NCBI RefSeq assembly: GCF_005116655.2
Contig: NZ_CP050698.1
Span: 2,262,501-2,326,500, forward strand
Direction: 5' to 3'
Length of the DNA stretch: 64,000 nucleotides
From: Desulfosediminicola flagellatus
Lineage (GTDB): Bacteria; Desulfobacterota; Desulfobulbia; Desulfobulbales; Desulfocapsaceae
Below are positions 26,243 to 29,984 of the stretch, piece after piece (the first letter of the stretch is position 1; each line of letters opens with the position of its first letter). A program made the position numbers and the translations under genes. Below the pieces are notes generated by a model. It saw only the letters and a program-made list of their open reading frames with translations. It was not told where the DNA came from and did not search any database.

Positions 26243-27796
26243 CTATTGATCAATAAAGCAATAGGGATCAAGGTCAGTAAGGCTTTTCTTGCCAAAGCCG
26301 TGAGTGACTGCAAGGCATCCGCCGCATACCGGTCGAATCTTACAACTATGGCAGGCACTGGTTCCCAATCTATATCTCTGGGCTATATCATTCTCATATA
26401 TTGTATTAAAATTGTGGTGTTTGATGTTGCCTAGCAGGGAAGGGAACTTTCGGCAGGCATGTACTTGCCCGTCAGGCAGGAGAGAAACAAAATTGAAAGC
26501 TGCCCCGCATCCATGGCCTGTGCATCCGCCTGTCAACTCAGTACCTTGGTTTAAATTAATGAGATTAAATAGATTGTCTTTTAATCTCATGGTTGAGTTA
26601 TTCTCTGCCGCCGCTCTGTATGATTTGAGAAAATGACTAAATTCATCTGGATTTACGGAAAGAAGAGATGCGCCATCTCCGACCATTGCCAGTCGGTTAA
26701 ATGTGAAAAGATCTACTCTTTTTTGCAGATACTCAGCGAGAGGGATTACCTGGTCCTGATTGGCTCTGGTAAGCGTGAGCATGACCATGGAGTAAATATC
26801 AAGATCTTTAAGAACTTCCAGAAATCGTATCACTCTTTCAAAATACCCCTCTCCCCGAATATAGTCATTGTGCTGAGACATACCTTCCAGGCTCACCTGA
26901 AAAAACTCGGGCATTTGTATGTCAATAATGCGCTCAAGTGTATTTCGGGATACTGGATTACCAAGGATCGCTGTCATCAAACCCCTTTCGCTGGCGGCAC
27001 GATACAGTTCGAAAAAGTGAGGATGCAGTAAAGGGTTTCCCCCGGTGAAACTGACCTGGCCTGCTACGTTATACTGTTTGCAGAACTCGTAAAACTGGTT
27101 GAGTATTTCCTCTCCTGTGTTGAGAGTTACCTCCTCTCGTTCCGTCCTGTCATAGCAGTGACGACAGTGAAGATCGCAGGCTTGGGTAATGTGCCATTGT
27201 AAGGTGAACACGTTAGACGTGAGGAAGCGTTCATACCCGGAACTGTCAGCACAAAAAGTAGGTGGTCGTGTAATTTTTGATGCTGGTTTTACGATGATCC
27301 TTTTGGAGACTGCCAAGGTCAAGATGTTTTGAAGAAGAGCAACAGGCACACTGGTTTCTTTTGCGAGCCTGAGTATATCAAGATCTTCGGTCACTATTTT
27401 GAGTGCCAATAGACTATGACTGTCGGGGGTTACGACTTCTGCCAGAGTGCCAGGGCGTTGCGGGATGATCAGTATCAGGGATTTCTGTTTTTCTGGTTCG
27501 ACAGCATTACCGCACAGGAGCTCCGGGATCCCAGACCAGGAGACTTCAATCAGTTCAACCCCGGGTCGAATCTGCCATGTGTTTAATTCTTCTGGTAATG
27601 AGGGAGGACTTTGATGAAGCCGATCTCGCAGTAATTCGACCTCGACAAGTTCAAGAAGGAAAGGATATTTCTCCAGCAGCACGGCGTTGGCTTGTATTCT
27701 TTCAGGTAACTCTTTGAGATGAGTGCATGTGAAGTTGTCTGGAAGAAATGTCGTCGTTACTGGTAGACGGCTATGAAGAGTTGTTCTTACCATCAT
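26243..27796 (-). CDS. sbtM: Radical SAM/SPASM peptide maturase, SbtM-like (selenobiotic type)
   Basis: About 517 residues, counted from the ATG at 27796; the frame is open to a TTG at 27826, but that codon abuts the terminator hairpin, so the later ATG is preferred even though its ribosome site is weak. A 190-residue N-terminal region, including a winged-helix-like stretch that may bind the leader peptide, precedes the radical SAM core with CX3CX2C (Cys 207, 211 and 214 in CDLHCRHC) and the SAM-binding GGNP. The C-terminal SPASM part has cysteines in CTGHGCG, HACRKFPSLLGN, CHSCKIRPVCGGC and DPYC for extra Fe-S clusters. Such enzymes modify ribosomal peptides. The upstream gene encodes a peptide with three UGA codons, matching the SbtA/SbtM pairs described from Geobacter (family name from memory). 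Confidence 0.88.
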   Translation of the reverse strand: MMVRTTLHSRLPVTTTFLPDNFTCTHLKELPERIQANAVLLEKYPFLLELVEVELLRDRLHQSPPSLPEELNTWQIRPGVELIEVSWSGIPELLCGNAVEPEKQKSLILIIPQRPGTLAEVVTPDSHSLLALKIVTEDLDILRLAKETSVPVALLQNILTLAVSKRIIVKPASKITRPPTFCADSSGYERFLTSNVFTLQWHITQACDLHCRHCYDRTEREEVTLNTGEEILNQFYEFCKQYNVAGQVSFTGGNPLLHPHFFELYRAASERGLMTAILGNPVSRNTLERIIDIQMPEFFQVSLEGMSQHNDYIRGEGYFERVIRFLEVLKDLDIYSMVMLTLTRANQDQVIPLAEYLQKRVDLFTFNRLAMVGDGASLLSVNPDEFSHFLKSYRAAAENNSTMRLKDNLFNLINLNQGTELTGGCTGHGCGAAFNFVSLLPDGQVHACRKFPSLLGNIKHHNFNTIYENDIAQRYRLGTSACHSCKIRPVCGGCLAVTHGFGKKSLTDLDPYCFIDQ

Positions 27797-27831
27797 TGGT
27801 ATACCGACTGATTGACTTGAAAACAATTGAA

Positions 27832-27856
27832 AAGCCGGTATAGATAATACCGGCTT
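27832..27856 (-). terminator. Hairpin between the selenopeptide and radical SAM genes
   Basis: On the minus strand AAGCCGGTAT pairs perfectly with ATACCGGCTT around a five-base loop and is followed by TTCAATTGTTTTC. It would end most transcripts after the peptide gene and let a fraction read through into the maturase, giving peptide excess over enzyme. Confidence 0.7.
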
Positions 27857-27876
27857 ATTAGGCGTGTTAGACGATA

Positions 27877-27893
27877 ACGCGCAGTCCGCGCGT
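27877..27893 (-). promoter_or_regulatory. SECIS-like hairpin for UGA codon 114
   Basis: ACGCGC-GGACT-GCGCGT, a six-base-pair stem. The loop starts 18 bases after the UGA at 27905-27907, the same distance as for the first UGA. It lies beyond the TAA stop, so it does not constrain the protein and is there for another reason. Confidence 0.6.
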
Positions 27894-27898
27894 CTATT

Positions 27899-28246
27899 TT
27901 AGCTTCAGCCACTCTTTCCGGATTTTTGTGGTGGAATTATTTTTTTCACAGCCTCTTCAGCACTCTTTTCAGCTGTGTCTTCACTTGCTTGACCGGCAAC
28001 TTCCTCAGCCTCTGTCACGGCTGTTTCTACTTGCTTTTTTACATCCTCAGCTTCAGCACTCACGGTGCTTTTCTTTGAGCCGCTTCATCCACTCGCTGCG
28101 GCTTCTTTTTTCACTTCAGCGCTACCTGCGCTTTTGTCTGCTCCTCAGCCACTCCCCGATGCAGCTCCTGGAAGAGTTAGTCCTCCAGCACCGATCAGAC
28201 TCGCGGCGCCGATACCTGCAAGAATCTTTTTGAGATCTTTTTTCAT
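27899..28246 (-). CDS. sbtA: Selenobiotic-type precursor peptide with three in-frame UGA (selenocysteine) codons, SbtA-like
   Basis: A 115-residue product if UGA is read as selenocysteine (U). The start has a strong AGGAGGACAT ribosome site. Residues 1-29 form a leader (MKKDLKKILAGIGAASLIGA, then GGLTLPGAA). UGA codons are 34, 54 and 114 (28145-28147, 28085-28087, 27905-27907). Each stands in the same context: SGSG-U-G, AASG-U-SGS and KSG-U-S, with TAA two codons after the last. Between them the frame is open and rich in Ala, Glu, Lys and Ser (residues 57-103, helical). There is no cysteine. Each UGA is followed by a hairpin 12-16 bases on. The maturase gene is directly downstream. Ordinary gene calling would stop at residue 33. 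The alternative, a pseudogene, does not explain the repeated context, the hairpins or the lack of TAG/TAA. Confidence 0.85.
28055..28069 (-). promoter_or_regulatory. SECIS-like hairpin for UGA codon 54
   Basis: AGCAC-CGTGA-GTGCT, a five-base-pair stem with GU in the loop, beginning 16 bases after the UGA at 28085-28087. Confidence 0.6.
28118..28132 (-). promoter_or_regulatory. SECIS-like hairpin for UGA codon 34
   Basis: AGCGC-AGGTA-GCGCT. The GCAGGU core begins 16 bases after UGA, the same core and position as in the E. coli fdhF SECIS as I recall it (GCAGGUCUGC after 15 bases). It is the best of the three hairpins. Confidence 0.7.
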
Positions 28247-28337
28247 ATGTCCTCCTGTTACTTTGGAAATGGTGACATAGAAATAGATAGAGATTTTCTA
28301 TGCGTGAAACAGAATGCTATAGGCTATTTATATATTA

Positions 28338-28566: not shown

Positions 28567-28707
28567 GGAGGTTGTCCGAGAATAGCAATTTTGTCTCGAA
28601 TCGAGGCATTTTGAAAAAAGAAGCGCAGTCATATAAATGATATTACGAGCATTATATTTTATAAATAACGAAGATTGGAGGCTAAAGGGTATTGACGGAC
28701 AGCTTCC
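28567..28707 (+). mobile_element. MITE-like element, family 1, copy F (complete)
   Basis: A 141-bp element with inverted termini GGAGGTTGTCCGAGAATAG and the inverse of GGAAGCTGTCCGTCAATA, flanked by TA on both sides (28565-28566 and 28708-28709). On the minus strand the right TA plus the element's first base give the TAG stop of the Hsp70-like gene. Confidence 0.8.
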
Positions 28708-29984
28708 TAGACAAAGCGACTCCCACAGATACCAAGCCCTTGGCCGACACTGGTAAATGTGTCTGTTTTGATCGTTTTTTGTGGCCCGAAAGTGCTGTCA
28801 AGAAACGTACTGATCAATGACACGTTTGACGTACCACCAGTTAAAATCACTTTATCGATATCGCCTAATCTCAAACCAGCGTCAGAGACTGTTTCAATTA
28901 TGCAGTTTTCTATTTTATTAATAGCATGAGTTATTATTGCATTATACCTCTCAATTGTTATTGGTCGGTGTATTGAAATGTTGTAGTCGACATAATTGAT
29001 TGAGGAATTATTCATGCTTGAAAGATCTATTTTTGTCTTTTCAATAGCTTTGAATAAGGTGTATCCATAGTTGTTTTCTATCAACGAGAGAAGGTTTTCA
29101 ATATATTGAGGCTGGTCAGCATATCCTTTGATTTCTCGCAAAACCTTTATCATTTTTGGAGTATTTAGGAGAGGCGTTAAATGCCATTTTTTCAATTTAC
29201 TCATAATGGATAATGGCATATTGACCAAAGAATTACTCATTGGGTATGATAGCTTTACATTCTTTCCAAATTCTGTTGCTACTTCTTCCCACATTAAGAG
29301 TGAATCTAGCGTATCACCACCGATATAAATTCCACCGAGAGATAATATATCCTGTTTGCGATCATGATTTTGTCCAATATGATTTTTCCCCACTTTTATT
29401 ACTGAGAAATCTGACGTTCCACCTCCAAAATCACATACTAAAACTACCTGCTCATCAGTAGCAGCTACTTGCTGTTCATAGCACATTGCAGCGGCGATAG
29501 GCTCATACTCCAAATGGATATTTTTAAATCCGGCCAATTTTGCCGCAGCAATCAATCTTTCCTGAGCCATATTTTCTTCATCTTCAATTTCAGAAAATAT
29601 TACCGGTCTACCGATTACAACGTCATCAACCTCACAACCGATTTGAGACTCACCTGCCATCTTAATTTTTTCAAGTATGAGACTGATTATCTTCTCAAGT
29701 GTAAATGTTCTTCCACCAATCTGGGTATCTTTGAAACTTAAATCAGGCAAATAGCTTTTCACTGATTGAATATAACGGCCATCAGCGTCTGTTTCGATAT
29801 ATCTATCAATTGCATGCTGACCAAAGAAGTACGTATGCTCAAAATAATCATAAAATATGATAGATCGTAATAACTTCGTATTGTCGTTAGAATCGTCAAG
29901 ATCAATTGCTTGCGTTTTTCCATCAACATTTATAGACAAAGATGAATTTGATGTGCCAAAATCGATACCAAAAGCAATTCCCAT
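28707..29984 (-). CDS. Hsp70-family ATPase (YegD-like)
   Basis: A 425-residue actin-fold ATPase. The N-terminal phosphate loop GIDFGTSNSSLSI, the EYEPIAAAMCYE segment, the second phosphate loop VCDFGGGTSDFSV and the adenosine motif VILTGGTSNVSLI are all present. Like YegD it is only the nucleotide-binding domain, with no substrate-binding beta domain or lid, so it is about two thirds of DnaK length. Function of this group is unclear. No DnaJ or GrpE genes are near. It ends at a repeat insertion that leaves its stop intact. Confidence 0.88.
   Translation of the reverse strand: MGIAFGIDFGTSNSSLSINVDGKTQAIDLDDSNDNTKLLRSIIFYDYFEHTYFFGQHAIDRYIETDADGRYIQSVKSYLPDLSFKDTQIGGRTFTLEKIISLILEKIKMAGESQIGCEVDDVVIGRPVIFSEIEDEENMAQERLIAAAKLAGFKNIHLEYEPIAAAMCYEQQVAATDEQVVLVCDFGGGTSDFSVIKVGKNHIGQNHDRKQDILSLGGIYIGGDTLDSLLMWEEVATEFGKNVKLSYPMSNSLVNMPLSIMSKLKKWHLTPLLNTPKMIKVLREIKGYADQPQYIENLLSLIENNYGYTLFKAIEKTKIDLSSMNNSSINYVDYNISIHRPITIERYNAIITHAINKIENCIIETVSDAGLRLGDIDKVILTGGTSNVSLISTFLDSTFGPQKTIKTDTFTSVGQGLGICGSRFV

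Follow-up and report, generated by a model that had tools for sequence, protein, structure and literature searches.

A predicted selenopeptide precursor gene with hairpin-followed UGA codons and its radical SAM/SPASM maturase in Desulfosediminicola flagellatus

The window analysed here, a 64,000-nucleotide stretch of the Desulfosediminicola flagellatus genome, carries on its minus strand a short gene, sbtA, followed by the maturase gene sbtM (Table 1). When UGA is translated as selenocysteine (Sec, U), the sbtA frame runs from an ATG at 28246 to a TAA at 27901-27899 and encodes MKKDLKKILAGIGAASLIGAGGLTLPGAASGSGUGADKSAGSAEVKKEAAASGUSGSKKSTVSAEAEDVKKQVETAVTEAEEVAGQASEDTAEKSAEEAVKKIIPPQKSGKSGUS. 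Read with the standard code, the frame would stop at codon 34, and on the forward strand reading through the same coordinates is interrupted by a stop. An earlier sequence-only reading of this DNA had proposed a 115-residue peptide with U at 34, 54 and 114 and without Cys, a strong ribosome site, Ser-Gly before all three UGA codons and a TAA as the second codon past the last of them. We confirmed each of these points: the Cys count is zero, Ser-Gly precedes U34, U54 and U114 (3/3), and the ribosome site is the AGGAGG at 28256-28251. An Ala/Glu/Lys spacer of about 50 residues had also been described between the second and third cassettes; the stretch is present, but U54 and U114 are 60 residues apart. 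To call the gene unannotatable, as that reading did, was too strong, because the NCBIfam leader model TIGR04081 detects it with 34.2 bits against a cut-off of 30.5 (36.9 bits in a whole-genome search). Judged from its sequence, sbtA of the window is a true, intact-looking member of the known selenopeptide family SbtA.

Table 1. Features of the sbtA-sbtM locus, in positions of the window
Feature	Position	Strand	Basis
sbtA, 115-residue precursor with Sec predicted at 34, 54 and 114, without Cys, TAA stop	27899..28246	minus	frame and TIGR04081
Ribosome-binding site AGGAGG, four bases 5' of the sbtA ATG	28251..28256	minus	sequence
Leader, residues 1-26, basic start then hydrophobic stretch, signal-peptide-like	28169..28246	minus	TIGR04081 match
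UGA codon 34, cassette 1, SG-U-G	28145..28147	minus	
SECIS-like hairpin 1, 5 bp, loop AGGUA from +17 nt after UGA; codes SAGSA	28118..28132	minus	
UGA codon 54, cassette 2, SG-U-S	28085..28087	minus	
SECIS-like hairpin 2, 5 bp, loop CGUGA from +20 nt after UGA; codes STVSA	28055..28069	minus	
UGA codon 114, cassette 3, SG-U-S; second codon thereafter is TAA	27905..27907	minus	
SECIS-like hairpin 3, past the stop codon, 7 bp, loop GGACU	27876..27894	minus	scan
10-bp inverted repeat then U-rich sequence, in the sbtA-sbtM gap	27832..27856	minus	consensus scan without this entry
sbtM, radical SAM/SPASM maturase, next gene after sbtA	26243..27826	minus	TIGR04082, 628 bits
SbtM N-terminal domain, modelled fold of MNIO partner proteins (TglI, NGO1945)	27236..27796	minus	

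The adjoining gene had been read as a radical SAM/SPASM maturase and the two genes as an SbtA/SbtM pair, and the curated models bear out both statements. The product of sbtM matches TIGR04082 far over its NCBIfam cut-off (628 against 350 bits), as the sbtA leader does TIGR04081 over its own, and contains Radical_SAM (PF04055) and SPASM (PF13186) domains. In a 36-sequence alignment the cysteines of the radical SAM CX3CX2C motif (C217, C221 and C224) and of the SPASM domain (C435, C440, C458, C492, C495, C501, C504 and C523) are invariant, and the SbtM core resembles RiPP radical SAM enzymes. The listed start of sbtM is a TTG, and an ATG at 27796 or 27793 is the likelier start because of the length of the closest homologue (among the best 120 of 3237 homologous proteins). 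A confident structural model gives the N-terminal domain the fold of the MNIO partner proteins TglI and NGO1945. The homology lies in the structure, and support from sequence is marginal, with NGO1945_C matched by the N-domain in 2/25 SbtM members (best E 0.019), and neither a comparison with solved structures at the sequence level nor a Pfam search of the window's N-domain gave a match. The inverted repeat between sbtA and sbtM is a possible terminator or attenuator. No MNIO gene is found among the two flanking genes scanned, which are MFS and Hsp70-like. An Hsp70/MreB-like ATPase ORF lies upstream of sbtA (28707-29984, minus strand).

The 6.75-Mb genome, one contig, contains a single gene over cut-off for each of SbtM and SbtA. 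Across 38 genomes, this one and 37 relatives, SbtM (TIGR04082) is over cut-off in 18 and TIGR04081 in the same 18, with one further genome having a TIGR04081 match below cut-off. SbtA lies on the SbtM contig in 15/18 genomes and on a different contig in three. Most named homologues among the matches listed belong to Desulfobacterota, Desulfobulbales above all, and a few to Nitrospirae, so that the host is probably related to sulfate reducers. Genome G031 has four TIGR04081 matches (L150, L166, L167 and L168), three over cut-off, L167 and L168 being divergent, and one SbtM over cut-off, and at L070 two different SbtA genes stand in tandem 5' of one SbtM.

Two orthologues from the same genus (G001 and G002) share the layout of the window's SbtA. 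The G001 orthologue (L130) keeps U at each of the three places, and the G002 orthologue (L126) has U, Gly (GGA, codon 57) and U with hairpin 2 intact. This GGA reads as an apparent recent loss of Sec by one base. L080 likewise carries a GGA near codon 78 in place of its relatives' UGA and retains the hairpin, another apparent recent loss. TAA or TAG in relatives, named in the sequence-only reading as a sign against the gene, occurs at the window's UGA places in 0/5 related SbtAs aligned; the one same-genus change is the GGA at the second place.

We scanned 97 loci for an SbtA leader, comprising the best 80 of 360 SbtM loci and 17 from the relatives' genomes, and found candidates at 71 and none at 26. 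Five of the latter (L121, L122, L124, L127 and L128) do have a genomic SbtA by TIGR04081, on the same contig at L122 and L127, where the leader scan had overlooked it, and on another contig at L121, L124 and L128. Removal of duplicates, one truncated copy and weak matches left 69, and the window brought the survey set to 70 SbtAs with 194 in-frame UGAs; 18 of the 70 end at a UGA judged to be the true stop from comparison with relatives. The absence of Cys and the long spacing had been thought unusual, and the survey contradicts this: 35/70 SbtAs are Cys-free, 34/70 have three UGAs, and in the 44 SbtAs that have a C-terminal cassette and three or more U, the final gap ranges from 13 to 83 residues and is at least 45 in 20. 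Ser-Gly precedes the UGA in 150/194 cases. The first nine residues carry a net positive charge in 66/70 leaders, and by loose pattern counts 17 of the 70 leaders have a lipobox-like Cys, 44 an AxA-like end and nine neither. The window gene is thus one more SbtA, and its seemingly odd features are common in the family.

SbtA peptides have up to six Sec and are of low sequence complexity, which would also suit a selenium store or a redox buffer, in which Sec serves for selenium or electrons and not for metals. However, a maturase devoted to the peptide, whose radical SAM and SPASM cysteines are conserved, would use up the selenol, and UGA is wholly missing from 2/70 SbtAs, of which L097 has Cys cassettes. 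We consider a store or buffer improbable.

The genes around SbtM were compared at the best 80 of 360 loci, using ORFs of at least 110 residues. SbtM itself was found at 77/80 loci and the next commonest family at only 11/80; no conserved operon partner other than SbtM is general, and genes for metal resistance or export do not generally recur next to it. Among 14 recurring families, the eight that were identified resemble housekeeping or signalling genes. A peptidase family of the M16C (PreP) type occurs at 10/80 of these loci (e.g. L033:3410-6358), RNA methyltransferase and D-Tyr-tRNA deacylase families at eight each, and an ABC-transporter ATPase family at 7/80. The recurrence of the M16C, RNA methyltransferase and D-Tyr-tRNA deacylase families is probably chromosomal synteny. 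These neighbours bear on the view that the product is a selenobacteriocin, that is, a modified peptide released against competitors. This view has behind it the names selenobiotic and selenobacteriocin, the family label 'Selenobacteriocin' in the accessible text of PMC13188914, the RiPP-type pairing of precursor and maturase, and the peptidase and transporter families just described. Yet no immunity, transporter or leader-peptidase gene generally recurs beside SbtM at these loci, the identified families are of the housekeeping or signalling kind, and in the 70 SbtAs Gly, Ala, Lys, Ser and Glu make up most of the sequence beyond the first Sec, where Ile, Leu and Met each stay below 1%. A selenobacteriocin is therefore an unlikely identity for the product.

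Background on the bacterial Sec machinery and SECIS is given in the accessible parts of PMC8318568 and PMC1088965. The sequence-only reading had proposed a look for the Sec genes in the genome, and the outcome was divided. SelB (368 bits) is present, as are tRNA-Sec, which scores 75.9 bits and is also called SeC by ARAGORN, and two SelD genes that exceed their cut-off and both contain an in-frame UGA, whereas SelA gave no match to either of two family models (TIGR00474 and PF03841). A SelA protein from the same genus found weak matches in the genome, the best with E 0.003 and 17.9 bits over 70 residues. Archaeal-type Sec synthesis by SepSecS as a replacement for SelA was rejected, as none was found in the genome. 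SelA is over cut-off in 32/38 genomes, and the SbtM-bearing genomes without it are 3/18, namely this one, G001 and G008. In two same-genus genomes (G002 and G003) selA adjoins a conserved gene block; in the three genomes without SelA the block is present, and the adjoining readable bases, which hold neither selA nor its neighbour, are followed by unread bases. Because of these unread bases we do not claim that SelA has really been lost. At L024 and L025 the in-frame UGA of both SelD genes lies near the N-terminus, and at L024 SelD is followed by an ORF with a SirA/TusA-like start, CGLTCPAP.

A bacterial SECIS, such as that of E. coli fdhF, has a short stem with a G within the first two loop bases and lies close behind the UGA. 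The hairpins of the window share these properties: all three have a G within the first two loop bases and lie 3' of their UGAs at +17 or +20. Unlike the fdhF type, several hairpins occur in one sbtA, within a repeated peptide motif, and the last one in the window lies past the stop codon. By folding energy alone they are at best modestly better than shuffles and unconvincing singly, with single-sequence z-scores for hairpins 1 to 3 of -1.75, -0.60 and -1.48 in 42 nt and 0.59, -0.30 and -0.42 in 56 nt. The minimum-energy fold of hairpin 3 moves the loop by one base and the centroid retains GGACU, where relatives have GGUC or GGUCU. An Rfam search of the hairpins gave no match.

The survey of 70 SbtAs gave a much larger sample. 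A hairpin with G within the first two loop bases lies at most 42 nt from 193/194 UGAs, compared with 33% in mononucleotide shuffles. We separated internal UGAs, with at least 15 codons following (n = 140), from terminal UGAs (n = 54). For 130/140 internal UGAs the loop begins at +17 or +20, and a stem of at least 5 bp at these distances follows 130/140 internal UGAs, 0/26 Cys codons beyond residue 31 and 27/3243 other codons. When synonymous codons were redrawn with the peptide unchanged (200 rounds), strong hairpins, found at 133/140 internal UGAs, fell to a mean of 28 (maximum 40), and hairpins of any strength, originally 139, averaged 81 (maximum 97). All 54 terminal UGAs have a hairpin by the loose rule, mostly beyond the stop.

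Base pairing within the stems was also compared between genes. Over stem positions 1-6, 95.0% of cells are paired in 47 distinct terminal stems against 58.7% after partner shuffling (maximum 64.5%), and 95.8% in 120 distinct internal stems against 80.8% (maximum 82.9%), figures that leave out 12/194 UGAs (8/140 internal and 4/54 terminal), take the terminal hairpin as the best of several offsets and the internal one as the better of two, which favours pairing, and use a shuffle that ignores relatedness among SbtAs. Many two-sided changes in the terminal stems keep the pairing. In six further SbtAs outside the 70, a 5-bp stem is found at 10/14 UGAs by a 5-base-loop rule; of the four misses, two share the hairpin of the next UGA and two, both terminal (L149 and L168), have none by that rule.

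These data bear on the view that the UGAs are stops and that the sbtA frame is a decaying remnant from which only a 33-residue leader peptide is made. The standard-code end of the frame at codon 34 and the failure to find SelA in the assembly would fit decay. In opposition to it, hairpins follow the UGAs at a fixed distance and covary in the untranslated part, orthologues keep the UGA, SbtM is intact, and SelB, tRNA-Sec and the UGA-bearing SelD genes have been retained. We regard decay as very improbable. With a SECIS-like hairpin after each in-frame UGA, the UGAs would therefore be read as selenocysteine.

The commonest internal loops (CGUGA, AGGUA, CGGGA and AGGUG) are nearly always in one frame, encoding A-V-S, A-G-S or A-G-G, and the motif that recurs after internal Secs is thus the hairpin itself, translated. 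UGA pairs three to five codons apart at L034, L070, L079, L081, L094, L148 and L150 seemingly share one downstream hairpin. Ten SbtAs end in IEGC, with Cys in the C-terminal cassette (L030, L041, L046, L048, L049, L061, L062, L064, L085 and L102); after this Cys codon a hairpin at +17/+20 is found in 0/10 and by a looser rule in 6/10, one of them strong (L046). Elsewhere, a Sec UGA is followed at a distance of two or three codons by a UGA that is the apparent true stop (L032, L038, L047, L057, L094, L098, L123, L129, L130 and L131), so that the same codon would be read in two ways within 9 nt. UGA-plus-SECIS cassettes may thus be open to gain, loss, or conversion to Cys or Gly.

The chemistry of related systems allows the product to be considered. 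According to the accessible text of the review PMC11002830, substrates with Cys or Sec lose four hydrogens on treatment with SbtM, and NMR showed the product from Cys to be a thiooxazole. Modified SbtA (written 'SbtMa') is placed among 5-thiooxazole compounds by a band at about 305 nm in the available part of PMC12668002, which also has MNIO-made 5-thiooxazole peptides binding copper. The window's sbtA-sbtM pair agrees with what these partial sources describe for the SbtA/SbtM thio(seleno)oxazole RiPP system, with the same leader model, SG-U cassettes, an adjacent SbtM and a SECIS-like hairpin. The entry for selenobacteriocin TIGR04081 tabulated in the accessible text of PMC13188914 has the motif SGUG and two Sec, whereas the window's SbtA has three Sec and no Cys, which is common in the 70-member survey. 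No difference excludes the window gene from the SbtA/SbtM system (TIGR04081/TIGR04082).

A wider comparison is with captophorins and bufferins, which the sbtA-sbtM system appears to resemble in the signal-peptide-like leader of its precursor and, by the structural model, in the NGO1945 fold of the SbtM N-domain. They are MNIO-made, whereas the maturase here is radical SAM/SPASM; in the window the partner-like domain is fused to the maturase and Sec replaces Cys. TglHI of the 3-thiaglutamate pathway, as far as described in the available text of PMC9016710 and PMC12636315, pairs a distinct partner protein with an MNIO whose target is a C-terminal Cys, and its chemistry is unlike that of SbtM. 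Other partly accessible articles report signal peptides and a role in copper excess for bufferins (PMC12452194), RiPP lipidation via a lipobox (PMC12636315) and the pairing of DUF2063-associated recognition domains with precursors that bear signal peptides (PMC12710340). The accessible literature, most subscription journals lying outside it, held no statement of a partner-protein fold in SbtM, of metal binding by SbtA or of a repeat made by a translated hairpin.

Taken together, we favour, with a probability of about 0.85, the reading that the three hairpin-followed UGAs are Sec in an SbtA precursor, that SbtM makes selenooxazoles, and that the product likely binds soft metals. SelB would read each hairpin, two within the coding region and the third past the stop. 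The partner-like N-domain of SbtM would hold the SbtA leader, and a four-electron oxidation of the Ser-Gly-Sec sites would yield as many as three selenooxazoles, with the polar Ala/Glu/Lys stretch between the last two. The signal-peptide-like leader would then carry the product to the cell envelope and be removed. Finally, by analogy with captophorins and their thiooxazoles, mature SbtA might chelate soft metals such as Cu(I) in the envelope; this is the least sure step, and we put it forward tentatively.

At the level of the family, we suggest as a possibility, at odds below even, that SbtA/SbtM is the anaerobic, selenium-based branch of the captophorins, in which an MNIO partner module was fused to a radical SAM catalyst and the same ring is made from Sec. 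The product would be an exported selenooxazole metallophore that protects sulfate reducers from soft metals, an idea drawn from the product, the partner fold and the leader type together. The interest of the window's sbtA lies in this family-level inference, by which two unrelated enzyme classes may have arrived at one metal-binding ring with one recognition module. If the sbtA coding sequence is built of UGA-plus-SECIS cassettes, RNA structure would dictate part of the peptide repeat, so that SECIS hairpins may shape a repeated natural product at the level of its amino-acid sequence. The same arrangement offers a simple gene-finding rule, SG-UGA with a hairpin at +17/+20.
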